From: a virus
Virus record (IMG/VR): IMGVR_UViG_3300013285_000070
Span: 1-25,435 of that record
Length of the DNA: 25,435 nucleotides
Strand: one strand, 5' to 3'
A program made the translations under genes and the position numbers. Below the pieces are notes generated by a model, which saw only the letters and a list, made by a program, of their open reading frames with translations, was not told the DNA's origin and did not search any database. Shown one piece after another: positions 4,190 to 22,700 of this stretch; within the stretch, counting starts at the first letter, position 1, and each line of letters opens with the position of its first letter.

Positions 4190-4699
4190 TTATCTCAGGA
4201 ATTCCTGCCACTCTAAATTATATTTAACACTGTCCACTTGGTGTATGCCCAGCAAATACAACACAAAACTGGCCACACTGCTTCCACGTCCTACACCCCA
4301 AACGATATTGTTTTCAATGCAGGTATCCACAAAGTGCTTGCACCATTGCAACAAGGGTATCATATCACGGACTTTATATTCTGCCATTTCATCTAGCACA
4401 CGTTGTTTTTGTTCCGCGGTGGTGCAACGACCCAAACAAAACTCTTCCACATCAAAGTCCTTGCAATGATTGGGCATGAACCAATCGCTTTGTAGTGCAG
4501 CATCAAAATCTGCAATATCCAACTGATCCAGCTGCTCGTTGAATCTTTGGAATGTGAATCCGGCTGTGTTCTCCAATTGACGAATTTCGTCCGTGTAGTC
4601 TACAGTTATTTCTTTGAGGTTGGTTAACTTGTTCTGATATAGAACTTTAAAAATATCTAATGTATTAAAGATAGGGTTTCCGAATTTGTCTAGGCGCAT
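4190..4699 (-). CDS. Stand-alone DNA polymerase III alpha (DnaE/PolC)-like fragment, 169 aa
   Basis: The C-terminal half matches the start of the bacterial polymerase III alpha palm region. A helix (ML-like LLQWCKHFVDTCIENNI, about residues 115-131) leads into GVGRGSSVASFVLYLLGI (134-151), the counterpart of the family's G-x-GRGS-x-x-x-S-x-x-x-Y-x-L-x-I motif, and then SVKYNLEWQEFLR (157-169), the counterpart of the D-P-x-x-Y-x-L-x-F-E-R-F-L segment. In true polymerases the catalytic P-D-F-D-x-D-F motif follows next; here the protein stops at exactly that point, so it cannot polymerise. The N-terminal 100 residues resemble nothing I can name. Downstream bases enter a new gene at once, with no trace of a broken continuation. 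Stop and start codons are clean and neighbours tightly packed, so this looks like a maintained small protein, possibly binding nucleotide, DNA or a polymerase partner. Confidence 0.75.
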   Translation of the reverse strand: MRLDKFGNPIFNTLDIFKVLYQNKLTNLKEITVDYTDEIRQLENTAGFTFQRFNEQLDQLDIADFDAALQSDWFMPNHCKDFDVEEFCLGRCTTAEQKQRVLDEMAEYKVRDMIPLLQWCKHFVDTCIENNIVWGVGRGSSVASFVLYLLGIHQVDSVKYNLEWQEFLR

Positions 4700-4709
4700 A
4701 GCCTATATT

Positions 4710-4940
4710 TTAACTTACGTTGATCAGTTTGTCAAGGTTTTTATCGCTCGAAGCCAGCATTTTTTCCAAAGCAACTTGACGACGGCGACTCATTTCTTCT
4801 TTGAGACTGTCCAGTATCATGGCCATTTGCTGACGCACATCTGGATTGTGAGTAATAAAATACTTTTTGGTAAGATCAAAGATCTTTTGCTCCAGTTCAG
4901 CATCCTTGAGTTTGTCTAAATCGTGAACCAGTGGATGCAT
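4710..4940 (-). CDS. Small helical phage protein of unknown function, 76 aa
   Basis: This highly charged, helical protein begins MHPLVHDLDKLKDAELEQKI and continues with an alternating acidic/basic pattern (DVRQQMAMILDSLKEEMSRR) that could form a coiled coil or helical hairpin. It lacks Cys and has no membrane segment. I recall close relatives beside structural genes in other marine T4-like phages, always unnamed. The start overlaps the 277-aa gene's TAA (TAATG), with no strong ribosome-binding site, so it probably relies on translational reinitiation. A 10-nt gap separates it from the polymerase-like fragment. A chaperone or assembly-adaptor role for the structural proteins upstream is only a guess from position and shape. 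Confidence 0.78.
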   Translation of the reverse strand: MHPLVHDLDKLKDAELEQKIFDLTKKYFITHNPDVRQQMAMILDSLKEEMSRRRQVALEKMLASSDKNLDKLINVS

Positions 4941-5773
4941 TACAAGAAGTCGCCTATACTGCGAATAAACACGTTGGCGCCGCCATCATAACTGAACGCA
5001 TCGATGATATGGAATTTTCCACCGTCAGCTTCTATAGGAGTAATCACTGTTGTGGCAGTGTACTTGGAATTTACAACAATGGGACTTGCAATGGTTCCAG
5101 CTGAAGCACTAATGGTCCAATTGGCTCCAACACCACTCACAATGGTGGCATTGTTTGGAATGCCAGCGCCGGAAATAGCTTGTCCAGCTGTAATGACTCC
5201 GGATTTGAGATTGGTCACAGTTAATGCAGTACCGTTTACTGTTGCTGAAAATATCGCACCGTTGGGAAATTTTAGATTGCCGTTAGAGTTGTTGACAGTA
5301 AGAGTGTAAGGATTACCAGAGTTATTGATAGAATTATTTCCATCTCCAACCAATATCAAACGCACTGTGCTGTATATGCCCGACAAACTGAATTGAGTTG
5401 ACATTGTTTGCCAACTGATAAAATTCACAATGGTGTTTCCAGCTATGGTAAATTTCTGTACTGGCCCGTTGTTCAAATTGACCTGCAAGGTACCACTATT
5501 GATAGCACTGGGAAAATTGTAATACACTCCGCCAAGCTGATAATACGATCCGTTATGAATAATACTGTTTTGTAAATTGTTGTCGTAAGGTTTTGTTGGA
5601 GCTGTGGGATCTAATGTAAACACTCCAGCAGTTTGTAATGCTGAAATTTCGTCATAGGCACGTTTGAAATTTGCATTGGTAGCCGCAAAATTGTCTCTAA
5701 AGCCCTGGCTGTCGTTGTCCCGTCCCACAAGGGGAAATTGTTGATTAAGTGCTGTTGGGTTTATGTTGCTCAT
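4940..5773 (-). CDS. Virion structural / tail-fibre-like protein, 277 aa
   Basis: The N-terminus carries a short conserved segment, LVGRDNDSQGFRDNFAATNA (about residues 15-34) followed by a helix, related in pattern to the first residues of the 188- and 315-aa proteins. The middle is Asn/Ser/Thr-rich beta repeat. Residues about 173-235 match the commonest repeat of the giant protein (G-x-A-L-T-V, SGVITAGQAISGAGIPNNAT, then W-T-I-S-x-S). The C-terminal 30 residues (ADGGKFHIIDAFSYDGG and on) form a compact ending. A T4-like late promoter lies 31 nt upstream, inside the preceding gene, and AGGATAACAGT precedes the ATG, which overlaps the 864-aa gene by 4 nt. The composition and modules indicate a baseplate- or fibre-associated virion protein; which one is unknown. 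Confidence 0.85.
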   Translation of the reverse strand: MSNINPTALNQQFPLVGRDNDSQGFRDNFAATNANFKRAYDEISALQTAGVFTLDPTAPTKPYDNNLQNSIIHNGSYYQLGGVYYNFPSAINSGTLQVNLNNGPVQKFTIAGNTIVNFISWQTMSTQFSLSGIYSTVRLILVGDGNNSINNSGNPYTLTVNNSNGNLKFPNGAIFSATVNGTALTVTNLKSGVITAGQAISGAGIPNNATIVSGVGANWTISASAGTIASPIVVNSKYTATTVITPIEADGGKFHIIDAFSYDGGANVFIRSIGDFL

Positions 5774-8364
5774 ACTGTTATCCTGTCATTTTTAAACGCT
5801 AGATATTTATCACTGTTGTATCCCGTCACGGCAGTAATGATAAAGCGGTCCACCACATAGTCTATTGTGGAGAAATTGAACCCGCTGGCCTTGATATTTC
5901 TCAAAACGGTATCGCCTTCGCCTGGCTTGCAAAAGCACAGGGGCAGAGACAACGAATAGTTTAGCTGTTGTTTTTGGCCTTTAGGAATACTTCTCATCCA
6001 CAAAGGCAAGTAATTTCTTTCATGCGATATGCCCACTCCCTCGTTGTCTTTCCAATTTTGGATACTGCTGCGCCAATTGGTTATGCTGTTGGGGAAATAG
6101 GTGTCCACTTGCGGATTACTGGCTTCATAGCCTGTGCTATCCACGGTTAGCCTGTTATAGGACAAACCGGTGATATGTGTTTCATCCACTGTGATAATGT
6201 CCGGCTCCAGTGCGGGAGATACAACTCTACTGGGCAAGTGTGCCCCATTGGGTTCCATGGGGTCTATCATCTGTACATAAATTGCTTCGTAAACACTGGC
6301 ACCGGTTTGTGGATCAATAGCAACAGCTTTCTTCACAGTGTCAAACAGGAACCGTTTACGTTTGGTATTGAGACCCATGGCGGACACATACACCGCTGCT
6401 TCTCTAGTTTCTATGCCAGCATACACCAACACTTTTAAATCTGTTTGAATTCCAAATGCTGGATCATTTAATCTATACAATGTGTTAGGCACAAACACTG
6501 TGGGATTGTTGATGAACTTTTGCCACACATTGCGTTTGGCCGCATCCAAAAATGGTCGCACCATAATATGGCTGTAATTTACAATGTTAGGAGTGCTAAT
6601 TCTCAATGTGAATGTCTGCATTTCTCTGTTGTAACCGTATTGGTCACTGGCAGTGATTGTGAACGTGTACTTTCTATCAAATGTGGTGCTGTTGTTATCA
6701 AAAAATGTAGTGTCGCTGTCAAATGTAATCAACCCTTTTTGCAATGTGACAGCGTTGTAAAACTGATTCACCATGCCAATAATTTCTCCATCAGCATTCA
6801 ATGCCAGACCGGGCGGCAGTTTCTCAAGCACAGTTTGTGGAGTCAAAGTGTATATCACAACACTGTCGGGAATATTACTTGTAGCAAACACATTTAGTGT
6901 ACATGTATAGTTGGCATCGATAGTGCCTAAATCTGTAGGAGTTTGCCAAGTAATGATACTGTTGATATCTCCTATTACCACAATATTAAAAGTTCTACTG
7001 GCTGCAACCATGTCATTTTTACTGCCAGCACGAGTAGCTGTCAAAGTAAATGTGTATTTTTTTGTCACTGTGGGTTGATAAGGAACTACTCCGTAAATGT
7101 CTCCTGTTCCTGGATCAAATTTCGTGCCAGGAGGAGTGGCACACAGTGTACCAATATAAAATGGTGTACCGTTGGGGATTGTTTGCACCAACACAGTGTT
7201 TATGGTGAGACGGTAGATGCCGCCCGGCAAGGCAGTCACAGTAGCAATTTGATAATTTTGTCCGATACCGCCTGCTAGATAATATTCAAAGTTAAACCAT
7301 AAGCCTGGCGCCAACACCACCGCTTCAGATTCGCTGACATTTGTTATAGTAATATGATTACTGCCAATTATGTTATCAGTATTGACCACTTGATATGCAT
7401 TCACATAGATTTCTTGATTGGTAGATTCCAACCTAAATTCAACATTGTTGTTGTCGTACAATGCTATTGGCACAGTGAGATAATTGTTGGCTCTAAACAC
7501 GCCCAAGTTTGGATTGGTAATCCATACTGGTTGACGAATATAAGTGGCATCAGCACTGAACTCATCAGCTAATCCATTCAAAGTGGTACTGTCAGCACGG
7601 AACTCATCGTTGCCCACAACAAATATTCTAAACACACGCTGAGAAAAATTTACACCATCGCTTACTGTTATTTTAAACTGATAGTTGACATTTAGTGTAA
7701 TGGGCTGTGTGGTGGGCACATTGAAATCAAACGTCACATTGTCATATGCATAATCATCAAAGCCGTCTGTGGGCGTAATACCGTAGTCGTAGCCTCTGCG
7801 ATCGTATATACTGGCATCATAGGTTCCGTTACCATCTTTGAGTGTGATAGCAGGTGTGGGTTCAATGTATCCAGTTATTAATCCGCTGTCGCTTAGAGTA
7901 AGTCCTTTGGGTAATTTTCCATCGCCGCTGGCAATATAAAATTTAAGATCACTGCCTTTGGAGTTTAAATTCTCTACTTGTATTTGATAATTCACATAAG
8001 TTGAATCCAATACATACAACTGATGCGCTGGACCAATATCAAGTGGTCCAGATGCTTGTAAAAAGACAGGCACGTTGGGATCAGTCACTGTCATACTAAA
8101 TGTTCTGTCAGCCACTTGCGGTAGATTGTTGACCAGTTTGCTGGCTCTTATACAAAAACTAAAATCCAACTGATGTTTGATAGTGAAACCACTGCCAATG
8201 ATGTCACGGCCTTTCAAGAACATGCCTCTTGGCAATGCTCCAGAAATCACACGATAGGTCACGCCCTCGTCGTCGGCAACAGGTAATGGTATGGTGTAAT
8301 TTGTTTCACCAACAAATGATCCCAAACTGTACCCTGATGGTTTTGTCCACACAACTAGAGACAT
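5770..8364 (-). CDS. Large virion protein with putative Ig-like (He_PIG-type) repeats, 864 aa
   Basis: The motif L-P-x-G-L-x-L-x-x-x-G-x-I-x-G, typical of putative-Ig (He_PIG) domains, recurs at least four times: LPRGMFLKGRDIIGSG near the N-terminus, LPKGLTLSDSGLITGYIEP, PPGTKFDPGTGDIYGVVP and LPPGLALNADGEIIGMV. Each is followed by a Y-x-F-x-x-x-x-x-D/T-type strand. The last third is different and matches, from memory, a conserved end of cyanophage structural proteins: FGIQTDLKVLVYAGIETREA, a Lys/Arg-rich KRKRFLFDTVKKAVA, ERNYLPLWMRSIP, PLCFCKPGEGDT and a final GYNSDKYLAFKNDRITV. The frame opens 6 codons earlier at a TTG, but the ATG at 8364 (MSLVVWTKPSGYSLGSF) fits the family and follows the previous stop by 1 nt. 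It is probably an adhesion or tail-decoration protein. Confidence 0.88.
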   Translation of the reverse strand: MSLVVWTKPSGYSLGSFVGETNYTIPLPVADDEGVTYRVISGALPRGMFLKGRDIIGSGFTIKHQLDFSFCIRASKLVNNLPQVADRTFSMTVTDPNVPVFLQASGPLDIGPAHQLYVLDSTYVNYQIQVENLNSKGSDLKFYIASGDGKLPKGLTLSDSGLITGYIEPTPAITLKDGNGTYDASIYDRRGYDYGITPTDGFDDYAYDNVTFDFNVPTTQPITLNVNYQFKITVSDGVNFSQRVFRIFVVGNDEFRADSTTLNGLADEFSADATYIRQPVWITNPNLGVFRANNYLTVPIALYDNNNVEFRLESTNQEIYVNAYQVVNTDNIIGSNHITITNVSESEAVVLAPGLWFNFEYYLAGGIGQNYQIATVTALPGGIYRLTINTVLVQTIPNGTPFYIGTLCATPPGTKFDPGTGDIYGVVPYQPTVTKKYTFTLTATRAGSKNDMVAASRTFNIVVIGDINSIITWQTPTDLGTIDANYTCTLNVFATSNIPDSVVIYTLTPQTVLEKLPPGLALNADGEIIGMVNQFYNAVTLQKGLITFDSDTTFFDNNSTTFDRKYTFTITASDQYGYNREMQTFTLRISTPNIVNYSHIMVRPFLDAAKRNVWQKFINNPTVFVPNTLYRLNDPAFGIQTDLKVLVYAGIETREAAVYVSAMGLNTKRKRFLFDTVKKAVAIDPQTGASVYEAIYVQMIDPMEPNGAHLPSRVVSPALEPDIITVDETHITGLSYNRLTVDSTGYEASNPQVDTYFPNSITNWRSSIQNWKDNEGVGISHERNYLPLWMRSIPKGQKQQLNYSLSLPLCFCKPGEGDTVLRNIKASGFNFSTIDYVVDRFIITAVTGYNSDKYLAFKNDRITV
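5804..5811 (-). promoter_or_regulatory. T4-like late promoter upstream of the 277-aa gene
   Basis: GATAAATA on the minus strand matches seven of seven fixed positions of the T4-like late octamer NATAAATA. It sits within the last codons of the 864-aa gene, 31 nt before the next ATG, with the AGGA ribosome-binding site between them, so it can give the 277-aa gene and those downstream an independent late transcript. Confidence 0.72.
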
Positions 8365-8365
8365 A

Positions 8366-8932
8366 TTAGGCAAATGTTCCAAAGTCTAGTTGATTTCTAG
8401 GACCCTGTTGTCCAAAGGTCCATGTGCCAAAGTCCAAGGGATTGTGCAAAGGTTGGCCATTCAAATCAAAGTTACCAGCTGAATTGGAAATGATTGGTCC
8501 CAGATCTAAATTCACTGCACTTGATCTGATCAGTAACTCCAGCGTAGCAGCCAGTAATTGTATATCGTATCCAAAAATTCTTGCTTGTACATCACCGCGC
8601 CCGCCCAAAATATATCCATTTAGATCCAAGTCTGATCCCAGCTGTGGATGGGAATCTGTCAGCAAACGTGTTTTTGCACTGAGGTTCACTGTGTTTTCGC
8701 TACTGGTAAACACCACACTGGTGTCAGTACTGGTCAGTGATTTAAATTCTAAATTGACACCTGCTTTGTCTTTAAAAATTCCAGCGCCAGCTCCTAAGTT
8801 TGTGCCATTTATAACTGCTGCTTCAGCAAACAGTTGTGTAAAATTAGCATTGACTTTCTGGAATGCGGTGCGTAAATCGTCACCTGTGCCGTCATTGGCA
8901 TAAGTACCCAAGTTGATCGTTTGAATAGACAT
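8366..8932 (-). CDS. Virion structural protein with N-terminal NDGTGD module, 188 aa
   Basis: Residues 5-36 form a module (TINLGTYANDGTGDDLRTAF, then Q-K-V-N-A-N-F-T-Q-L-F) that recurs in the 315-aa protein and in many T4-like phage fibre and structural proteins, where it is probably an attachment or trimer-capping segment. The rest is beta-rich, with a repeated LDFGT phrase near the C-terminus (NPLDFGTWTFG and NQLDFGTFA). A T4-like late promoter lies 21 nt upstream, and AGAGGG precedes the ATG with a suitable spacer. The TAA is 1 nt from the next gene's ATG, so the 864-aa gene is coupled to it. There is no enzymatic motif. Most likely it is a small baseplate or tail-fibre adaptor. Confidence 0.85.
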   Translation of the reverse strand: MSIQTINLGTYANDGTGDDLRTAFQKVNANFTQLFAEAAVINGTNLGAGAGIFKDKAGVNLEFKSLTSTDTSVVFTSSENTVNLSAKTRLLTDSHPQLGSDLDLNGYILGGRGDVQARIFGYDIQLLAATLELLIRSSAVNLDLGPIISNSAGNFDLNGQPLHNPLDFGTWTFGQQGPRNQLDFGTFA

Positions 8933-8952
8933 GATGTCAGCCCTCTTTTAAG

Positions 8953-8960
8953 TATTTATC
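8953..8960 (-). promoter_or_regulatory. T4-like late promoter upstream of the 188-aa gene
   Basis: The minus strand reads GATAAATA followed by CTTAAAAG, a full match to NATAAATA, 21 nt before the ATG at 8932. It overlaps the final codon of the peptidase gene. With the octamers at 5804 and 1434 it indicates a shared late-gene control signal. Confidence 0.75.
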
Positions 8961-9786
8961 AAGGGTTGGTAACCGCACTGATTAGCCAAAAATCATTGCT
9001 CATTTGTGTGTTTTTGATAACATCGTAAGGCATGTAAAAGTAACCACGATCACCCCAACCAGCGCTCCAACTGTTACGGCATATGAATCTACCGTTGGCT
9101 CGGCCTGCCACTGGCATGTTATCGTCATAGCCCACAATGGCCACAGCATGTCCACCCAACACTTGCTCTGTATTAACATCTGGATAAGGCATCATACCTG
9201 TGGTGTTGTTGACGGTGCCTTCAAAACTTTCGTAAACTGTAAATCCCATCACAACTGGATTACCAGCGGCCAGTGCGTTCTTCACTGCTGTAAAATCTGC
9301 ACAACGTTGATAACCAGTTACCTTACGCTTTAAGGCATCGGTGTAGGCAGCAGGTGCTGGTTTGGTAGCAAACTTGTTTTCAACATAAGGCCAAAGACTT
9401 TCTATAGGAGCACCTTTGGTATAGCACACTTTGATACCATCGCGAATATATGCACCAGCATCAAACCTAACTGATCCTTCCAACACACGTTCCTCGTAAT
9501 AGATGAACAAGCGGCTCACATCTAGATTCTTACCGCGTTTACGATCAATCAGTTCGATTAATCCAGCAATGGCATTGCCAGTACATGAACCAATCTGCCC
9601 TTGATTTTCAATAGCACTGGCATAGTTTCGCAGGTCAACTTTTGCAGCTAATGCAACTGGTTGCAGTTGATACATGTGATCTCTTGGATCAGGAGTATCT
9701 GGTAGCCAACGATACTTTCCTAGAAATTTAGGATTAAAGATCCCCGATACATCGATTGTTGATAAATTTACGCCTGCTGTTTTCAC
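8959..9786 (-). CDS. Papain-family (C1A) cysteine peptidase, 275 aa
   Basis: All four papain active-site residues are present: the oxyanion Gln62 and nucleophile Cys68 in NQGQIGSCTGNA, His213 in LGGHAVAIVGYDD, and Asn238 in CRNSWSAGWGDRGYFY, which also carries the family's G-W-G-x-x-G-Y. An N-terminal YRWLPDTPDPRDHMY (about residues 25-39) matches the short leader seen in bacterial C1A peptidases, where it precedes a V-D-L-R strand as here. No signal peptide or long inhibitory propeptide is visible. The start is GTG at 9786, supported by GGAG 6 nt upstream and coupled to the previous TAA. It lies between structural genes under apparent late control, so plausible jobs are maturation of the long virion proteins, digestion of host surface protein, or a virion-borne enzyme. 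The fold is clear; the target is unknown. Confidence 0.93.
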   Translation of the reverse strand: MKTAGVNLSTIDVSGIFNPKFLGKYRWLPDTPDPRDHMYQLQPVALAAKVDLRNYASAIENQGQIGSCTGNAIAGLIELIDRKRGKNLDVSRLFIYYEERVLEGSVRFDAGAYIRDGIKVCYTKGAPIESLWPYVENKFATKPAPAAYTDALKRKVTGYQRCADFTAVKNALAAGNPVVMGFTVYESFEGTVNNTTGMMPYPDVNTEQVLGGHAVAIVGYDDNMPVAGRANGRFICRNSWSAGWGDRGYFYMPYDVIKNTQMSNDFWLISAVTNP

Positions 9787-9787
9787 A

Positions 9788-10735
9788 TTATGCTCCAGTA
9801 CCGTTGTGTAATATCTTAAATGCTGCTGCCAATCTGTCTATGGCCTCTTGTATTGTTGTAGGAGCAGTACCGTTCCAATCCGTAGATGTTGCAGGAGTGT
9901 ATGAAACTGTGCCACCGGAGGGCAATGTTAGTTTACCATCTGTGTTGAAAGACCAACTTTTTGCAGATGCTGTTATTTTTATAGGCTTGCTAGAGGTAAC
10001 CAACTGCATACCATCCCCGCCACTTGTGCTATATCTAATCTGAGGGTAGACAAGATCACCAGCATCTGGAAAGTAAAATGTTTTATTAGTAGCATCTAAA
10101 GCCCACAAATATGCCACATCACCATCAACGCCCGAAAAAATAGCGCCATTGCCTGTTGGCAATTTGATAGATAGTGGGTTAATCTTAAAGGTGGTATTGA
10201 CGCTGGGCGAGCTGTTGGAAAGATTTACTGTTAGCGAATTACCCGTGGATATAGTAATGCTTTTACCAGTAGTAGTGGTAGCGTCCGGGAATGTTAGTTT
10301 ACCATCTGCGCCAAATGTCCATGTGTTACCCAGTGAATAAATGGTGGTTTGATTACCAGCAATCTCTATATCACCAACTGTGCCATCGTATGGTAAACCG
10401 CCTTGTATAAGTTGTTCAGGTGTGGCTAAGGGAGGAGCACCAGCTTCAATGATCACATTGCCTCCAGCACCATTTCGCATGGCGTTGGCACCTTTGATAT
10501 ACACCGGCATAGCAGTATCAAATCCGCTTTGGATAGTAATACCGCCAGTTGGTACACCTTCGCCGTCCAGCTCAATCCTAACAAACTGTGTGTCGTCACC
10601 CAGGTGGTACTTTGTACTAGTGTCAGTTGCAAACAGTTCAGTAAAATTTTGATTTATTTTGCTAAATGCAACACGCAATGTGTCTCCTGTTTTGTCGTTT
10701 GCCGCCTGACCGACATTGATAGTTAATTTACTCAT
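9788..10735 (-). CDS. Virion structural protein with N-terminal NDxTGD module, 315 aa
   Basis: Residues about 4-36 (TINVGQAANDKTGDTLRVAF, then S-K-I-N-Q-N-F-T-E-L-F) repeat the 188-aa protein's N-terminal module. The body is Gly/Thr/Ser-rich beta structure. It contains two copies of a W-x-F-x-x-D-G-K-L-T-x-P phrase (WTFGADGKLTFPDATTTTG and WSFNTDGKLTLPSGGT) that I know from other marine phage structural proteins. The C-terminus ends in a short helix (TTIQEAIDRLAAAFKIL) that could trimerise. The ATG overlaps the giant gene's TAA (TAATG) and follows GGGGAG. The same operon holds the giant protein and the peptidase. It is probably a fibre- or baseplate-associated protein; no catalytic site is seen. 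Confidence 0.86.
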   Translation of the reverse strand: MSKLTINVGQAANDKTGDTLRVAFSKINQNFTELFATDTSTKYHLGDDTQFVRIELDGEGVPTGGITIQSGFDTAMPVYIKGANAMRNGAGGNVIIEAGAPPLATPEQLIQGGLPYDGTVGDIEIAGNQTTIYSLGNTWTFGADGKLTFPDATTTTGKSITISTGNSLTVNLSNSSPSVNTTFKINPLSIKLPTGNGAIFSGVDGDVAYLWALDATNKTFYFPDAGDLVYPQIRYSTSGGDGMQLVTSSKPIKITASAKSWSFNTDGKLTLPSGGTVSYTPATSTDWNGTAPTTIQEAIDRLAAAFKILHNGTGA

Positions 10736-13700
10736 TATGCTCTCCCCACAGCAATTTCAATTACTCCAGCTTCGCCCGAGTCCTTGTCTTCCAATGCCTT
10801 ACCAATAATAGCACCAAGTGTTGGAGTTGAAGCTCTAACAGCATAACCAGGAGTAGCACTAGTTGTCAGCATATCGCCTTTCCTCACACGTCCTACCACT
10901 TTGCATGGCACACGACCTACCAAGGCAATACAAACTTTTGTGCCCACCAAGTTATGATTCATGGTGTACGCCGGGTCAGTTGTTACCACTCCAGCACATC
11001 TAGTATCATTGATGTGTGTGGTTGTTGTGGTCTCAGCATCCCCACCAAACACCAACACTGTACCAGGCTCATATTCTTCATCACTAGTGTACCACTCAGC
11101 CAAGTCACTGTATGTGGCCTGCATCTGACTGCCTGTACCAGTCAATGTCCATGTGCCTTGGATAGTGCCAGTGGTTGAACCAGTGTTTGATCCGCCGCTG
11201 GTACCAGCCACAATAGCAGATGCATACAGCGTGGCCACTTCACCACCACCTGAGCCGTCACGCAACAACAGCGTACTGGCAGTTCTAGCCACAGCATTTG
11301 GTGTAGTGGCACTGGTAGTTTGACTGGTCACACTGGCCGCAACACCGTTGAATGTGGCTGAACCAGCAGTTGCACCACCACTGTTCACAACAATAAAGTT
11401 GAATGTTATAACACCGCTTGGTGTGCTGTTTGGTGCTGCACTCAGTGTTATGCTGGTTGCACTATTGACTGTTTGCACAGTTTGTCCTGCGATAAATCCA
11501 ACACCGTTCACTGCCATGCCAGCAACTATGGTGCCAGTTGCGCCGGTAAAGTTGAATGTTGTTCCGCTTGAGCCTGTGGCATTGTATGTTGCTGTGATTG
11601 TGTAACTGCTCAACAACAAGCCACTGAATCCCAAGTTGGCATTAACATATCCAGCAAAGAAGTTGCCTGAACTGTTGCGCAACACCAGTGTGTTGGCTGA
11701 GTTGGCAGTGGAGTTGGCTGTGGTAGCACTGGTGGTCTGACTTTGCACACTGGTAGCCACAAAATAGCTGCCAGGGTCAACACTCCAGTTGCCTGTAACA
11801 GTGCCGCTAGTGCCTGAAGCGCTGGTGGTCAGTTTGGTTTGTTTAATGCTGCCGCCTGTGCTGTCGAACACCACACCTGCCCCCAGGGCCCATGAACCGC
11901 TGATTGTACCAGAACCCACACCTGAATCCAGTGTTCTTGTGTACAAGGTTCCTACTGATGTGTCCAGTACATCACCGCTGGCTTTCAGTTTCCAATAACC
12001 AGTAATGGTAGCAGGTGCAACACTGGTACTGCTGACCGCGGTCAGCGTATTGGTTTTCAGTGTGCCGTTTACCACATTCCAAACACTGCCACTCAATACA
12101 CTCCAGTCGCCTTGTACTTGTCCGGTAACTGTGTTGTCTGTGGCGTTGGTTTTGATAGTTCTAGTCAACAGGGTACCTGATGTTGATGCAAGGTCGACGG
12201 TGCCAGTAAACGTTGAAACAGCATTGCTTGTGGTAGTACCAGCCGCTGTCAAAAAGTAAACAGGGCTGGGTCCAGCACTGGCAGGAGTATTGAATTGTAA
12301 TGTTACACCGTCAGCATTCAAACTCACAACACTGTATCCGTTTATCTTAACCCCTACCACATCAATAACACCGCTGGCATCAGATTTAATAATGGCACTG
12401 GTAGCATGTGCTGTGGTCACTGGGGTAATGCTGTAACCAGTGCCTTGGCCAGTTTGTGTAAACACACCAGCACCAGTAAAGTTTGCACTGGCAACGCCGC
12501 CGCCTGCACTCAACACTTGGCTAGCTGTGTATTCAGTTGGACTTGCCGCACTGCCTGACAAATTGGCCAACACTGTGCCAGCAGTCATTTGCTGAATTTT
12601 GGCAAACAACACACCAGTTGTTGCGCTGTTACTGGTTACAAAATCCACCCAGCCGTTGGTCACGCTAAACGCATTGCTGTTGAAAGTTGCAATACCCAAA
12701 TTACTTTGAACCAGCGTGGCAGGCGCAGTGCCCAGAGCAGCAGTGGCCGCTTGCATGGCCAATTTACTTTGTGCAATAGCTGCACTTGCATTCACCATGG
12801 CATTCACAATCTTGTTGGACTGTATGCTGGTAGTCAATAATCCTCCAGCATTGACAGTTGGTGTGTATGAAATGTTAACATCGCCAGTTGGCAAAGCAGC
12901 ATTCTTCCAAGTGGAACTGGTTGGGTCATACACTATAGAATCGCCACCTGACAGATTGCTGAATGTGATAATGGTAGGAGCTATGCCTCCTGGAGGAGCA
13001 CCATTCAATGTGATAATGGTATTGGCACCGGACACTGCAATATTTGTAATGGTTTGGCCAGTAAAGTAACCCGCAATGGCTGAGGTTGGAGCCATTCCTT
13101 TCAAAATTGCTCCATTCACGGTAGTTACAGTGAGAGTCACGCTGCTCAAACTTACCCATGTTGCAGTGCCTTGGAATGCAGTATCTTTTAATTTGAATAA
13201 ACTGTTGCCGCCGGACCCCACAAAGTCCACATAGCCTTTGTTGGCGGCATTGGTGTCATTGGTGACAAATCCAGGCATGTACAAGTTTTGAATAAAGTTG
13301 TTGCCCATATTCAATGCATTCTTCATTGCCAAGCCACCATTTAGTGGCAAGAAGCCTGGTCCAATTATGTTGGCAGCACTGACTGGATTGCTACTGGCAT
13401 CAAGCCCTAGGCGCAAGTCAATGTATCCTCGAATGGCACTTTGTACTGGCACAATGTCAGGAGCATTTTCGTTCATGGTCAAATCAGTTGAGAACTCACT
13501 TACCACAACACCACGTTTGAATCCCAATCCATCCAAGTTGCTCAACGCAATAGAAGCCGCAAAAGTAACCGTACCTGTACCTTGGTCCACTGTAAAGAAT
13601 CTGCCCACACGGAAGATACCGTTTTGGTCAGTACTCACATGGAACACACGACCCACACCTTCTTCAACCACAGCAAATGAACTGTTGGCTGCTTTGGTCG

Positions 13701-16700
13701 GGTTGCCGTAAATTTGATTTGGGTAGTTGGTGGTGTCAAAGCCACCAGTACCAATATCCAAGAAGTCATGACCAGTAGCACGAGTAGTTGAAATACGCAC
13801 TGTGATCTGAGCCTGTGTGCCAGCTGGGTAACCTGCACGTAGTGTGGTAGCACCAGCGGTACTGAATCCTCGTGCAATACCAATGGTGCTACTGGTACCG
13901 CTGGCTGTGTTGGCTGTGATTGTACATGCTGTGCCAGCACCCCATGTGGTACTGTTGCCGTTGGGATTGTATTGGTAAATCAAGGTCAATGTACCGTTGG
14001 CAGCAACAGTTCCAGTTGCTGTGCTGGTTGGATAAGAACCATTGTACAACGTGTTGGTATTGCCAGCCACAGTAAAGTAGGCACCGTTCACCACACTTAG
14101 GCCAGTAGTAATGGTAAATGCCACACTGTAAGTTGTTATGCCAAGAGCAGTTACTGGAGTTACCACAGGTGTGCCTTTGATACCCACTGTGACACCTTGG
14201 ATAAAACTTGGACTACTAAAGTTCATGGTCTGGCCACTGGTCACTGCCTGACTGGTCACTGCTTGTGGAGCACCGTTAGGTGTAGCACTTATGGCCAGGG
14301 TGCTGCCAACCACGGCTGTGATGTAATAGGTCTTGGTTTGATCCAGTCCACCCAGCGTGACGTTACCACTAAATGTAAGTTGATTGCCCGCTTGCAAATT
14401 GGTCACAGTGCTCACGGTCAACAAGTTTGCAGTGCCTGTGATTGTGGTGCTGGAAACAGCTGGAGTAAATCCGATTTGGTTAGTGGCTGTTTGCCATGTG
14501 CTGCTTGGAGCACTACCACCTGTCACATTGCTAGTGATATAAGTGTAGGTGGTACTGGTCAAAGTACCAGCACTGATAACAAATCCACTGTTGCTGTTAG
14601 TGGTATTAGGATAAGTCACAGTGGTAAGGGTGCCTGATATACTTGCACTGGCAGCTGATTGATTGTTGTTCACCGTGTAGGTGGTACCCAGCACTGGAGC
14701 ACCAGTGGCAAATTGATTCAATGTGTAGTTGCCAGTGGATCCAGTACCAGTGCCATATCCTGTGATATAAGTTCCTGCGGTAACACCAGTACCAGTAATA
14801 ACCATGCCAATAGTCACAGTGCCTGTGACAAGTGATATAGATAACAAATTAGTCAATTGCGCATAGGCCAATCCAGTTATGACACCTACACTGGTTGTGA
14901 TAGCTGTGCCCCCGCTGGTAGCGGACAATTGGAATGTTGTGGTACCATTGGTGGCAATGATATAATATGGTGTGCCCGCAACATAACCACTAATGCTTGG
15001 TGCCTGTGCAACAAATGTCAATCCTGTAGTATGACCCTGAGTATTCACAATGGCTGAACCACCGTATGAGCTTAACAGTGAGAATGTTGTGGTACCGTTA
15101 GTGGTACCAATGTAATAAGTATTACCGCTCACATAACCACTGATAACACCAGCATTGAACACCATGGTAACACCAGTCAAATTACCTGTACTTGCTGTGC
15201 TGGTTACATTACCACCACCCAATGAGGCTGACAGTGTAAATGTTGTGCTGCCGTTAGTGGCAATAATAAAGTAAGTTGTGGGAGTTGTATAGCCAGTGAT
15301 ACTGCCACTACCAAATGTTCCACTCAGGGTGATTGATTGTCCAATTACCAAAGTGATAGTGGCTGCCACGTTTAGTGTGAATGCGCCACCTGTGGCCAAA
15401 CTGAATGTGCCACCATATGTGACATTACTTGCAGTGCCAGTAACAATTACTGGTTGATTGGCAAACAATGCGGTGCTTGTAGTTTGATAAGCACCAGCTG
15501 CACTGGTACCATACACATTGGTCAATGTGGTGTTGGTATTGCTAACTGTTCCGCTTATGGTAATCTGTTGTCCTATTACTAATGCAACTGTGGCAGAGGT
15601 CCCCAAGGAAAACGAACCAGTATTGTTGGTAATCGTAACAGTGCCAGGCAATGACGTTGAACCCAGTGTGCCTGTTATAGTTGCTGTATTAATGGCTGTG
15701 ATATAAGTACCGCTACTGATATTGGCGCTTGATACCACTGAACCAACACTGACACTGCCCGTAGTGGTTCCAGTCAATGACAAAAGTGATCCGCTGATAA
15801 AGCCAGCAGTATTGGTAAATGTTGTGCTAGCAGTACTGGTTAGTAAGTATGTTCCGTTGTATCCTGTTGGAGTAACTCCAGACACTTGAATCAACTGTCC
15901 AGACGCGAACGGTGTTTGAATCAAAGCGGGCACAGTGAATGTTACACTGCTGCTGGTAAAGCTGATGCCCAATATGGCCAATGTCAAGTTTTGTGCCACT
16001 CCTGGTCCAGTCAGGATCATGCCAGGTAGAATAGTTCCACTGCTGAATGTGCCCACGGTCAACAAGCCGGAGCCGTTGATACTGCTGGTAGCCATGGCCA
16101 CTGCGCCATTTGTGGTGGCACTAATAGTGCCGTTGGTGCTGGGGTCTGTGGTATACAGCACTTGCATACTGGTATTGATCACGCCAGACTGACCAGTGGT
16201 TGGATAAGTTGGAGTAGTGGTCAGCGTAGGCACCAACACAATTGCAGTTTTTGTAATATAATCTATTAGAGCACCGTCACCGCCACTTAGAGTAATTGTG
16301 GGAATGGTGCTGTATCCAAAACCTGGGTCAATTATGGTAATATTCACACTGCCCGCAGCATCATTGTTAACCGAAGCAACTGCTTTGGCTTGACGATTTG
16401 GACTTGCATACGCCAACCCAGTCAGCGGATTAATTGGCATGGAGAATATCACTGTGGGATTTGAGCCAATTTTATAACCAGAACCAACTGATAGATATGG
16501 ACTAATACTCAACAAGGTAGCTGGCGTCTGAGCACTCAAATTTGACCCAGCTGGAATCCAACATGCGGGACTTACCACAATAGATGAACTTGCAGCATTT
16601 ACACTTTGTATAATAGTTCCACTGGGAACAACTGCATCAGCAGTGCTGGTGGCCAATGCCATACCCGCTGACAATCCAACAATGCTGTTGACATAGATTG

Positions 16701-19700
16701 TGGAGCTGTTTGTAACACCCACTACCTGTTGTTGACCGTTGTATTTTGTGTTGCTGCTTCCGCTGATATTCAATACACTATCAACTGGCGGAAGATTTGG
16801 CACATTTAATCCAGTGGCCGACGCATTGTACGGAATGTTGAATGTAACAATTTTTCCAACTGCGATGCCAGCATTATTGGTCAAAGATGTTTGACTCACA
16901 TACTGCATACTTGATACACCAGTACCAGTGGCGCTGTTGTTGTAAATTGCATTTGAATCAATGGTCAAATAGCCGTTAGCACTGGCACCAAATGTAATGG
17001 TAGCGCCTGCGGTTGGTGTACTGGTTGGCGGATTTGTTAGTGTGATCTGCGCAGTGATAGTAGTATTGAGAATACTTATAATGGGGTCAGTTGCCACATA
17101 CTGTGTACCATTGAACAATCCAGCAGTGGCGCTGGTCACAATCTGTCCCTTGGTTATAGTGCCAATAACTCCAGTCAAAATCAATGTGGTTCCACTGCTG
17201 GCAACAATTGTGCTGTTGATAGGACCTGACACTGCATAACTGCCTTGACTGATACTGGTAGGTGATGTATATCCTATAATACGATGTGTACGACCCAACC
17301 AAGCAAAGATCCAGATGCCTTTGTTCAATTGATTAATTATTGCGGCATTGGCAATTGTGGTAATGGCAATCTTGCTGTCGCCTGCTTTGCTACCCTGTGT
17401 TTTTGTATTGAAATAAATCGGACCAACTGGTGCAATTGTGGGGTAAGCATTTAGTGTAACAGTATACACGCCAGTATATGGCACAGTGTTTACTGTTACA
17501 CTTGCGGGTCCAGAAACAGACACAATAGTTTGTCCCGCAAAACCAATTCCGCCCACTACCTGTCCAGACGCCAGTGTACCAACAACGTTGTTGACAGTTA
17601 GGGTATAACTGTATAGTGCATTACCCACTCCGCCGTACAACACTGTTGCTGTGGTGGCTCCAGCAAGGTCTGCATTAAGAATGGTGCTGGGATCAACAGC
17701 CAACTTGTAAAAGTTAAAGCTGGAATCCACACCAAGAATAGCTGTGCCACTGGTGGTGCCGAATGGCTCACCAGTTGATTCGATCAAATTGTAGGCAATG
17801 ATACGATAGATATCACCCAAGTTATTGATAAACTGTAGTGCTGTACTTGGTCGTACTGGCTTGACGTTGTTGATGTTTTCAAATTTAAAATTTTGCAACA
17901 CACGAATACTTACAATTTGTCCGTCGTACAGTGGATATGCCAAACCAGTAGTGCTCGTGCTGTCAGTACCAGCTGTGCTCAATGTTAAATTTAACACGTT
18001 TACATTGTTGACCGTGACGTCGGTGTGGCTCACTGTGCTGACTTCATAGCGCACAATACCACCACCTACCGCTGTATGATCAATTTCAAGTTCGCTGGTA
18101 TTTTCTGGAGCTATAATATCTTGATAATTGGTGATGTAGATATTCAATCCACCCTTGACCATGGTATTAATATATGCGCCTTGTTTGTACACGTGAGCAT
18201 TATACACCATGTCGTGCGACAAGTTCACTTGGTTTGGCAGTTCCGTTACATCATATCCTGTGGCACGTAAACCATATTGACCATTGGCATTGGAGCCAGC
18301 CACACTGCGAATTTGTGCGCCATTCAAGGACCAATATGCTGTGTAACAGTAATAGGTAAATGTTGATACCTGCTCCGTTAAACCAGCATTAGTACAAAGA
18401 ATACCGTAACCCAAATCGTTAACTAGAGTATAGTCGTTGGCCAACATACTCTTATTACCGCCCATCTCAATATTGATGACCAAATTGGCACCGCTATTCA
18501 ACACACTCAATGTGGTGGTTTGAATAGTTGGGATCCTAGCTATCAATGTGGTATAATCTGCATTACTGATAGCAGGCGCCACACGTGGCGGTATTGTATA
18601 TGTTGTTGGACTTGCAACATAGCCTGACAAGAAATCAGTAAGGCCAGTAGTACCGTTACCAATTATATAACCCACACTAGTAGAACTGATACCGATAGGA
18701 CTGCCACTACTGCCCGCAGTTTGTGCTGAACCACTCACAGCCCATGAGGATCCGGCACCGCTAGTGATGTATGTGTTGGCCGCTATTCCAGTTCCAATCA
18801 CAACCTGATTAGCTCCAATCACACCACTTGTTAGACTGACCACAGTGAGTGTGTTTCCAGTAATATAACCTGTAAACACCGCTTCACCAGCAGAAGGCAA
18901 ACTGGTTACTTGTACATATTGATTTCCACTATTCACCGTTACTGCGGTATTGGTAATCAATTGTTGCATCACATATGCCATTCTTTTGTAAGCTGCTGCA
19001 TACGTTGCGGCACTACTCAGTGCATAGCTGCTGGTGCCTAAATAAATTGTTGTTCCTGAAGTCACAGTTTGGGCATAATTGATGACCCATGTTGTACCGC
19101 TGCCACTTACAACTGTGGTACCAGGAGTAACGCCAGCGCCAGACACAATCTGTCCTGGTTTAATAACACCATCAGCTGGTGTTTTGTCTGAATCCACATA
19201 CAATGTGGTTCCCGTAATATGTCCGGTAAAATACAAAGCACTTGCTGAGCTCTTGGTATAATAGTAACTGAGTGTTTTGTCAAATATGCTGCTGTTGCCA
19301 CCATACATGATATCGTAAGTAATGGCATCTGTGAGATATCCAGCATCCTGTTGTGTGACTAGGCTGTTGTATCCTGGGATCTGTTGTGTGGGATAAGTGG
19401 CACCAATCCATGCTGCCATCTCAGCTTGTATGAATTGTCTGTTATTTTGAATAATGTTGGCAGCTTTCTGAGAAACAGTTGACGCTGACATAATTCCAGG
19501 GAACGCAAGTACAGGAGCAGAAATGGCACCGTTGGTAATGATACTGGCAATAGTTGACAAATTATTATTCACTGCAAATGTGTCAGCAGTGCTTAAACCA
19601 ATTCCTCTGATCAATAGTTGTGCTTCTTGAATACCTTGTTGGACTGCCAATTGTCCCAAGCTGCTCAAAAAGTTTTGTGGTTGCAGATATGTCAAACCGC

Positions 19701-22700
19701 CAATAACAGTTTTGTAATTGCTGTACAAAATACCTGTAATTGTTTGGCTACCAGTACTAACAGCGTAGCCATAGCTCACGCTCCAAGTGCTTGCACTAGT
19801 TGAAGTTCCTGTCAAGTTGGCAGTGATATATGTACCTTGAACAACGCCAGTGCCACTAAGGTACATGCCCACGTAAATTACACCTGCACTGACACCGCCA
19901 ACAGTAAGCACATTGCCCACTATGCTGGCACCAGTCATGGTAGCACTCACACTTGTGGCCATGTCTTGACCAGAATTTATAATCAAATAACACAGTAAAT
20001 TACTGAACATACTGCTGGCACTATTGTAAATTCCAGTTAGCAAGAAAGGTGTACTGTTGTCAATGGTCAATACCGCAGTGCCGCCAGTTACCAATCCGTT
20101 GATATCTGTGTTTTGAACCCAACTTACCACATCGTTGATTTGATATCTATTGCCAGCCACATAAAATGCACATGGCACTTGTGGGGCACGTAGGTCCAGT
20201 CCACTGTTAACAGCTCCGGTAACAGTGAGAGTCTTGCCACCATTACTGATATTGGTAATTGTACCACTCAATCGTCCGGTGAATCCGTCAATAAACTGAC
20301 CACCCGCAAAACGTCTGCCAGTGCCTAAACTTCCGCTGAAGCTGGCTGATTCTTGACAGTATGGTGATTTGGTTTTGATTTGACCTGTTGGATCAAGCAC
20401 CATCATGAATCCACCGTGGCCTTGGCCAGTCATCAACTTGATACGCACAGCATCGTTAACCAAGAACACGTCAATTTCTTTGTTGTTTTTTGGAACACTG
20501 TCCTTGTCCGAAGGGTTGGTCAAATAATGCCTACCATAGTTAATGGTATTGTACAAATGCCATTCGCCAATGTTATAAGTTTTAATAGCACCAAATGGGT
20601 AGATAACTTCAGCATTCATGATGTTACCACTGACACTTAGAATCACAGCCTTGCCAGCTGTGCCGGTTTCACTACTAGCATCCATGAACACATATCCAAC
20701 CCAGCTTTGCAATGCTTGAATATTGTTGCCCAGGGTAATAACAATCACACTGTTGATACCATTAATTGTTGCAGTAGTTCCTGCGGCAACTGAATAGTCA
20801 ACTGCAAAATCAATCAAGCCAACTTGTAAGGCATCAATAATACTGTCACGATAGAAGAAAGTATTTCTCCAAGGACTTTGACTAATACGATCTAGCGGAC
20901 GAATAATTGTGCGACGGAAATCGTCACCGCTGATGGTCACATTTGCTGGAATCTTGATTGGATAATCTTCGTAGTAAATACCCGTTTCAACAAAAATAGT
21001 GATATTCAAATTACTGACCGTCTCGCCAAAGTCTATGGTTTCGCCTTCTAGGAAGAAACCTGGTTGTACCAGTCGCACAGTGACTTGATCGTATGTTGTG
21101 CCAAGGTCATGACCAGATTGATAGCTAACAATCTGTGCAGCAGCACCCGATTGATTGCCCACTAGAATTTTGCCTGGAATAATGTGGATCTGACTTTGTT
21201 TGCCCACAGACACATTACCGCCCTGATCTACGTAACCGTTGCCAGCATTGCCACTGAGAGAACCGTTGTCAAATCTAATGGTGTAAATTCCTGACCCATA
21301 CAATGCTGTGGGAGCATTGCCAAATCCGCCGCGAATAATACTGGTAATGATATTATAGTTTGTAGTGAATGTACTAATAGCACCAGTTGCATCATATGTC
21401 TTGCCCAGGGTGCTATTGGTCTGCTGTCTATATGCCTGTTGATAACGACTGGCTGTGATCTGACGTAATACCTGCAATGCCAAATCTCTAGCAAACGTAA
21501 TGCCATCCAGTGTTTGCACCAGTTGGCTACCAATTGCTATGCCTCTTGCACTGGTATTTTTGTAATAGCTTTTGCCTGCATTGACGCTTTGATAATTGCC
21601 GCCTGTTAAAATATCAATAACTTCAGCATCAATGATCAGTCCCAAGTCACGCAAGTAAGTTGCTTCGTTGTAGTTGAATCCGCCTTTGTATGTTTGATCA
21701 AGGTATGTAAGCGTACCTGATGTGATACTGGCATTTTGACTGTCAATCGTGTCTTTGGTTCCAGACAAACTGGTTTCTACCAAACTTAGACTTGGCACAG
21801 TCAACGTGCGTGGCATCACTGCACTGGTGGTGTACAGTCCAGCGGTGTTGTTGGCTATGATATCTTTCAGCACAGTGAACAATGCAGTGATAGCAACACC
21901 TGGACCTGAGTTTTGAGTGTTGGCCCATGCATTGCTGACCTGTTGAGTAACATTGTCAGTATTCAAAACTGGTGCATATCTTGCAGCTTCAGTTGACACA
22001 ATCACCGCAGAAATAATAGACTGTGCGTGTATGATGCCTTGGTAGTATGCTTGTCCTGGTTGATTTAGACCAGCCAACTGGCTGACTCCATTGACCCATA
22101 ATTTTGCTGCGGCCTTGACCACTGCATAGTTACTGCTGTAGGTAAGGTCGTATCCAACAGCTTCTAGCAAATATCTTAAACTGAGTTTGGTAAATGCATC
22201 CAATGCAGGAGTACTAATGTATCCAATAGTAGGAGCATTTATCTTCATCCATGCCAAAGTCTCAGTTGTGATAAAAGTACTATTGGCTACAATTGCCTGC
22301 TGGGCATGTAAGTAATCAGTATACCCAGGTGTTATGTTGGTAGGAGTATTGAAGGTTATGGCTGGTCTTGTGGCAATACCATTTTGTAACAGGCTGGTAA
22401 TGACTCCAAACAATGTGCCAATAGTGTTTAAAATTATAGCAGTATTTTGGCTATTGTTGTTGTTGATAACAGGGAAATTGGTGTTGATAAACTGTGTGGC
22501 AATGTATTGCAAACCATTTGTGGTGTTGGTATTATTGATAGCTTCAAACCCTAATCTTGCAGTGCGCAAGGTGTCCACAGTGGTCATTGCTCTAGCTGAT
22601 ATGGTTTGAGTCACATTGATGTTGTAACTCACACCAGTGATAACAATCGGAGACGGCTGTGTACCAAGAGTGTAATTGGAATTAACACTCCATGTGTTGG

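Follow-up and report, generated by a model that had tools for sequence, protein, structure and literature searches.

A facultative papain-type peptidase in the tail-tip cassette of T4-related jumbo phages

The stretch of DNA analysed here (the window) is a 25,435-nucleotide viral fragment, IMG/VR record IMGVR_UViG_3300013285_000070, and this 25.4-kb fragment is the source of the peptidase gene described below. Along the minus strand the order of products is a giant protein, a 315-aa protein, the peptidase, a 188-aa protein, an 870-aa protein (IG870), a 277-aa protein, a small DnaE-like protein, Cpn10 and a gp44-like clamp loader. PhoH is encoded beyond the clamp loader on the opposite strand. 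The features that the argument needs are the following.

10735..25377, minus: giant protein, at least 4880 aa counted from a TTG, frame open at the record end
9788..10735, minus: 315-aa tail-fibre connector-like protein, directly upstream of the peptidase (PHROG 677, E 1.2e-10)
8959..9786, minus: C1A (xylellain-type) cysteine peptidase gene, 275 aa, GTG start at 9786
9721..9786, minus: extra N-terminal segment of the peptidase, MKTAGVNLSTIDVSGIFNPKFL, codons 1-22
9652..9720, minus: N-terminal leader beginning KYRWLPDTPDPRDHMY, codons 23-45, common to xylellain and bacterial homologues
9601..9603, minus: Gln62 codon, oxyanion-hole position, invariant in 149/149 homologues
9583..9585, minus: Cys68 codon, nucleophile position, invariant in 149/149 homologues
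9148..9150, minus: His213 codon, invariant in 149/149 homologues
9073..9075, minus: Asn238 codon, invariant in 149/149 homologues
8366..8932, minus: 188-aa protein, conserved, downstream of the peptidase slot (PHROG 677, E 1e-9)
5770..8382, minus: IG870, with putative Ig domains (He_PIG, PF05345, E 1e-13), conserved operon member
4940..5773, minus: 277-aa conserved operon protein

The tail genes are tightly packed, with intergenic gaps of -1, 1, 26, -17 and -4 nt. The peptidase starts 1 nt after the end of the 315-aa gene, and the 188-aa gene follows 26 nt further downstream. Each of the two flanking proteins matches PHROG 677 ('baseplate wedge tail fiber protein connector') through its N-terminal part, where both have the same T4 gp9/10-like motif; the corresponding PF07880 matches (E 0.0019 for the 315-aa and 2.2e-4 for the 188-aa protein) are under the curated cut-off, and the middle of the 315-aa protein varies among relatives. 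The preliminary description had the peptidase coupled to structural genes on both sides and next to a protein of nearly 5,000 residues. Gaps and PHROG matches bear out the first statement, and the giant neighbour is real, its 4880 aa being a minimum for a frame that leaves the record. The giant protein has no Pfam match, and only its C-terminal ~150 aa match a PHROG, number 22593, of unknown function. A match of the 315-aa protein to a 'nacht' model in PADLOC (2.5e-6, 24.9 bits) is weak and was set aside as compositional noise. The T4 late-promoter motif TATAAATA is not enriched in the window (24 matches, 28 expected).

The small DnaE-like protein (4190-4699, minus; 169 aa) stands alone and is conserved gene by gene in this clade. 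At its C-terminus it matches bacterial DNA polymerase III alpha over the 'GxGRGSS...' stretch, just past which the protein ends, and it is present in at least 554 IMG/VR stretches.

On its profile, the residue order Gln-Cys-His-Asn and its predicted papain fold, the product of 8959-9786 belongs to peptidase family C1, subfamily C1A. It matches PF00112 (Peptidase_C1) with E 1.9e-15 and 58 bits against a cut-off of 20.7; the only other Pfam match is Peptidase_C39_2, with none to NLPC_P60 or CHAP. PHROG 16701 ('peptidase') is matched with E 1.7e-15. The top sequence match in the PDB (phmmer) is xylellain of Xylella fastidiosa, 3ois, with E 4.6e-50 over residues 23-272, and cathepsin K ranks second at 3e-9. 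An AlphaFold2 model, built from an alignment of 60 sequences from the window and related loci, has a pLDDT of 90.2 and a pTM of 0.87. It is confident beyond residue 22, most of the xylellain-like leader included, while residues 1-22 are poorly modelled or disordered. Foldseek again places 3ois first (E 1.5e-26, TM 0.81, rmsd 2.0, 41% identity), followed by procathepsins. The intact papain-family peptidase of the preliminary description is thus recovered both by profile and by predicted structure.

Gln62, Cys68, His213 and Asn238 are where that description had placed them, in the canonical contexts 'NQGQIGSCTG', 'GGHAVAIVGY' and 'RNSWSAGWG'. We looked for loss of the active site across 149 homologues (85 phage and 64 bacterial) and found none, all four residues being invariant. 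As judged from sequence and model, the enzyme is apparently catalytically competent. It has a short leader in place of a long cathepsin-L-type propeptide, and its alignment to 3ois starts at residue 23. Within the leader, W27, D33, R35 and D36 are conserved in at least 90% of 60 sequences. The likeness of this leader to bacterial C1A enzymes, also remarked earlier, holds: it aligns with the xylellain N-terminus and its motif is common to bacterial homologues. The 22 residues ahead of it are strongly conserved within the subclade of the window peptidase alone and are missing from most other phage copies. That they serve as a docking tag is a guess; a search for the segment in other phage proteins, as a common docking signal, gave nothing convincing. 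A hydrophobic N-terminus is absent from 87 of 88 phage peptidase sequences. One relative (L020:49-1161, frame open) has an insertion of ~90 aa between the equivalents of residues 155 and 158; the idea of its being one of the giant protein's repeat modules was dropped, as the insertion matches no other ORF among the loci compared.

A first scan of IMG/VR with the window peptidase alone as query gave 20 loci, and a scan with an alignment gave at least 124 loci encoding a relative, 80 of which were kept. In the nearest relatives the operon order is identical to that of the window. The window and the nearest of them, L007, have in common a block of ~2.2 kb (8958..11187, minus) that comprises the C-terminus of the giant, connector gene ends and the peptidase. 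Nucleotide identity is 87-88% over 8958-9961 and 10349-11187, while the flanks of the block are mostly 63-77% identical, with a few 300-base bins reaching 0.87 near the far end. For the peptidase dN is 0.033 and dS 0.47, which indicates purifying selection. The last 130 codons of the giant (dS 0.45) and the N-terminus of the 315-aa protein (0.32) are similar in dS; elsewhere the values are 1.1 (PhoH), about 1.8-3, or saturated. The simplest reading of this pattern is a single recent exchange that took in the giant C-terminus, the connector gene and the peptidase, with one edge at the peptidase stop codon.

Deeper ancestry was followed on a quick, unrooted maximum-likelihood tree (135 rows, SH-aLRT only, xylellain itself left out). 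Sixty phage sequences, starred on the tree, form one set without a bacterial member, placed on this tree among bacterial homologues that include Dickeya; the remaining phage copies fall partly among bacterial enzymes (Bacteroidota, Pseudomonadota, Mycobacterium and others). The best bacterial match to the window peptidase has 52% identity. This distribution fits repeated acquisitions from bacteria, one of which would have radiated in phages. The earlier suggestion of acquisition from a bacterium stands for the family, but this copy belongs to the 60-member phage-only set and moved from phage to phage within a tail cassette. On the peptidase tree, the IG870 operon must have been gained or lost at least 7 times, where shuffling gives a mean of 16, so the gene has moved among phage backgrounds several times and is still clustered.

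The neighbours of the peptidase were counted after removal of near-duplicate contigs, which leaves 64 loci with the upstream gene in sequence and 69 for a range of four genes. The upstream neighbour is on the same strand in 60 of the 64, with a gap below 60 nt in 57. In 23/64 loci it is a laminin-G-like protein, and such a protein lies within four genes in 32/69, a lower bound given that the contigs are fragments; Laminin_G_3 (PF13385) is above cut-off in most representatives tested with Pfam. Among records sharing the IG870 operon, PF13385 is found in 9 of 19 with the peptidase and in 3 of 49 without it (Fisher p 2.5e-4, ignoring relatedness; the HMM is independent of these loci). Receptor-binding proteins of the Mtd_N type (Major-tropism-determinant N-terminal domain; 2.6e-13 in L016) are within four genes in 11/69 peptidase loci versus 1/77 peptidase-less loci. 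Overall, a tail or adhesin marker lies within four genes in 52 of the 69 loci, and the other 17 have none.

In some relatives the association is covalent. L029 and L030 encode a 527-aa protein that joins laminin-G (residues 88-234, PF13385, 4.4e-15) to Peptidase_C1 (296-513, PF00112, 5.2e-17), and its laminin-G part is confidently modelled (pLDDT 85.9) as a lectin jelly-roll. In L015 a collagen-like repeat and then a C-terminal domain follow the peptidase in one protein, which also has tail-fibre PHROG matches. The peptidases of L027 and L031 have an additional N-terminal domain of about 80 aa, and that of L019 has a Thr/Ser-rich tail. The window's own fragment has no laminin-G or collagen gene fused to or adjoining the peptidase. 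Kinship of the laminin-G partner with clostridial neurotoxin receptor-binding domains was considered and rejected, the likeness being at the level of fold only (TM about 0.6, 13-19% identity).

Other genes also accompany the peptidase. A fatty-acid desaturase gene lies directly downstream of it within the tail cassette in L007 (10801-11556), L009 (2278-2985), L008, L013, L037, L039 and L077. After the peptidase of L015, methyltransferase-like and AMP-binding-like genes follow (8181-11674), an order repeated in L016, L017, L025, L028, L031 and others. Some blocks of this type add, in phage contigs, a small outer-membrane-barrel-like protein and a periplasmic receptor of the TctC type. Burkholderiales are typical carriers of TctC families, and the gene is a possible hint at such hosts.

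We think the peptidase is somewhat more probably than otherwise a virion-borne, adhesin-directed protease that cuts host surface proteins. Among the alternatives, one is that it acts as a weapon inside the cell, cutting host or defence proteins in the cytoplasm, with its place in a tail operon reflecting late expression or chance. Its patchy distribution is what is expected of host-directed peptidases (PMC7824862), a signal-like N-terminus is absent, and a thiol enzyme is suited to the reducing cytoplasm. The peptidase stands alone amid opposite-strand genes in L019, L064 and Burkholderia phage FLC9, the last an isolated phage whose homologue, gp163, has 37% identity and lies outside any tail cassette. 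Beside the peptidase, seven loci have a fatty-acid desaturase and six a methyltransferase (eight when a distance of two genes is allowed); this tells against a role in the virion and means that the slot takes non-structural cargo too. The desaturase cargo and the few lone copies lend the alternative some weight. Against it stand the fusions to laminin-G and to a collagen fibre, the recurrent association with adhesins and Mtd_N proteins, and the exchange of the peptidase together with the giant C-terminus; known defence-system models in PADLOC also leave the peptidase unmatched, which weighs little. We regard action inside the cell as unlikely.

Whether the other tail genes need the peptidase was addressed with 80 loci picked by the DnaE-like marker regardless of the peptidase. 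Three of them carry it (L176, L180 and L191, the same contigs as L059, L005 and L010). Many of these contigs extend only a little way upstream; in 43 of them the sequence reaches 4 kb or more beyond IG870 on that side, and a single one of the 43 has the peptidase. Close peptidase-less relatives read giant, connector, connector, IG870, with the slot empty, and the last 130 aa of the giant are recognisable in peptidase-less relatives at 55-85% identity. Searched over their whole length with PF00112, 49 peptidase-less records, of which three measure 270-372 kb, gave no C1 peptidase. Since most relatives keep the giant C-terminus and the operon without a C1 peptidase, the enzyme is optional and is not needed by the giant: it is a facultative cargo of the tail-tip/receptor-binding cassette of T4-related jumbo phages. 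The co-occurrence with the giant gene that the preliminary description proposed to survey therefore runs one way only, the giant C-terminus being often present without the peptidase. The enzyme does not stand in for the prohead protease either. All seven related records of 258 kb or more (258-372 kb), four with C1A (258-361 kb) and three without (270-372 kb), encode a T4-type Peptidase_S77 regardless of the C1A gene, which rules out a replacement.

The same survey bears on maturation of virion proteins, in which a late peptidase would trim or activate the fibre and adhesin proteins of its own cassette (the 315-aa protein, the giant C-terminus, the laminin-G partner), either ahead of assembly or following it. 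In favour of this, the gene is translationally coupled to tail genes and shares a single recombination block with the 315-aa gene and the C-terminus of the giant, and group-specific peptidases among jumbo-phage structural proteins have been suggested to process virion proteins (PMC7824862). Yet the giant C-terminal domain, the connectors and IG870 exist without a C1 peptidase in most relatives, S77 is kept in all seven large records, and an assembly protease is not expected to be fused to binding modules. Obligate maturation of the giant is ruled out by relatives that have the operon and lack the peptidase, and we consider maturation in general quite unlikely, though it may apply to a variable partner present only alongside the peptidase. 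Of the three roles offered in the preliminary description, attack on the host surface thus fits best, on account of the fusions to binding modules, and maturation of the giant or of other conserved operon proteins is contradicted. An endolysin-like function in peptidoglycan breakdown or lysis, prompted by a homologue in Alicyclobacillus phage MMB025 that is annotated endolysin and has a peptidoglycan-binding-like C-terminal region, and by a BFVD match named peptidoglycan binding-like (A0A6J5MXS7), is highly improbable for an enzyme with the fold and residues of C1A/xylellain, from a clade that has no wall-binding domain and whose fusions are of lectin and collagen type; the murein peptidases with a papain-like fold known from phages are of the NlpC/P60 or CHAP families.

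Returning to a protease directed at the host surface, we infer that the peptidase is present in the particle, acts outside the cell on a host-surface substrate and is activated through its leader. The enzyme would ride on the virion, fixed to fibre or adhesin proteins or docked with them, and a connector or adhesin would hold it close to the host surface. During adsorption it would cut surface proteins, so that a protein barrier is thinned or a receptor exposed. In xylellain, part of the active cleft is reportedly covered by an N-terminal stretch; if the window enzyme is covered likewise, it would be switched on once the leader is displaced or cleaved. A point against this reading is that, outside the cell, a thiol enzyme has to be protected or to find a reducing environment. 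Tentatively, and with slightly less than even confidence, we propose that freshwater jumbo phages use an adhesin-guided papain-type protease at the tail tip, swapped together with fibre tips, to strip surface proteins and so open or select receptors. Enzymes borne on phage tails mostly cut sugars, lipids or murein, and the adhesin-guided protease may, at a similarly tentative level, be the protein counterpart of polysaccharide depolymerases. If this is true, surface proteins (S-layers, pili, outer-membrane proteins or a protein-rich matrix) would form a barrier, or a layer of receptors, on the hosts that these phages infect, and a role would be suggested for the viral branch of xylellain-type peptidases. 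With at least 124 IMG/VR loci encoding a relative, and with the fusions at hand, the idea of a surface protease is directly testable.

Neither the family nor its occurrence in tailed phages is new. Short xylellain-type C1A peptidases have been transferred independently to Myoviridae and Siphoviridae (PMC10380794, 2023), and we found no genomic context, fusion or role given there for these Caudoviricetes genes. Across the open-licence papers searched, we found no virion-borne C1A phage protease, no description of the coupling to a receptor-binding cassette, of the facultative nature or of the laminin-G and collagen fusions, and no prior demonstration that the giant can do without C1A and that C1A does not serve as the prohead protease. 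Tail fibres of jumbo phages are known to carry laminin-G domains (PMC7824862); the laminin-G and Mtd_N receptor-binding proteins that adjoin or fuse with the peptidase in relatives are binding modules and not enzymes, and the window has neither. The T4 gp21-type prohead protease (Peptidase_S77) is likewise encoded by these same phages, but it is of an unrelated family and separately encoded. NlpC/P60 peptidases, sometimes tail-associated in phages (PMC7824862), have a papain-like fold as the window enzyme does, but form a separate family and act on murein. The closest known system is xylellain (3ois), whose natural substrate is still unknown (PMC12090721). Xylellain and bacterial xylellain-like C1A enzymes have in common with the window peptidase the fold, the catalytic residues and the N-terminal 'PDxxDxRD' leader, whereas the window copy lies in a phage tail cassette, belongs to a phage-only set and has an extra 22-aa N-terminus, and some of its relatives are fused to laminin-G or collagen fibre modules.
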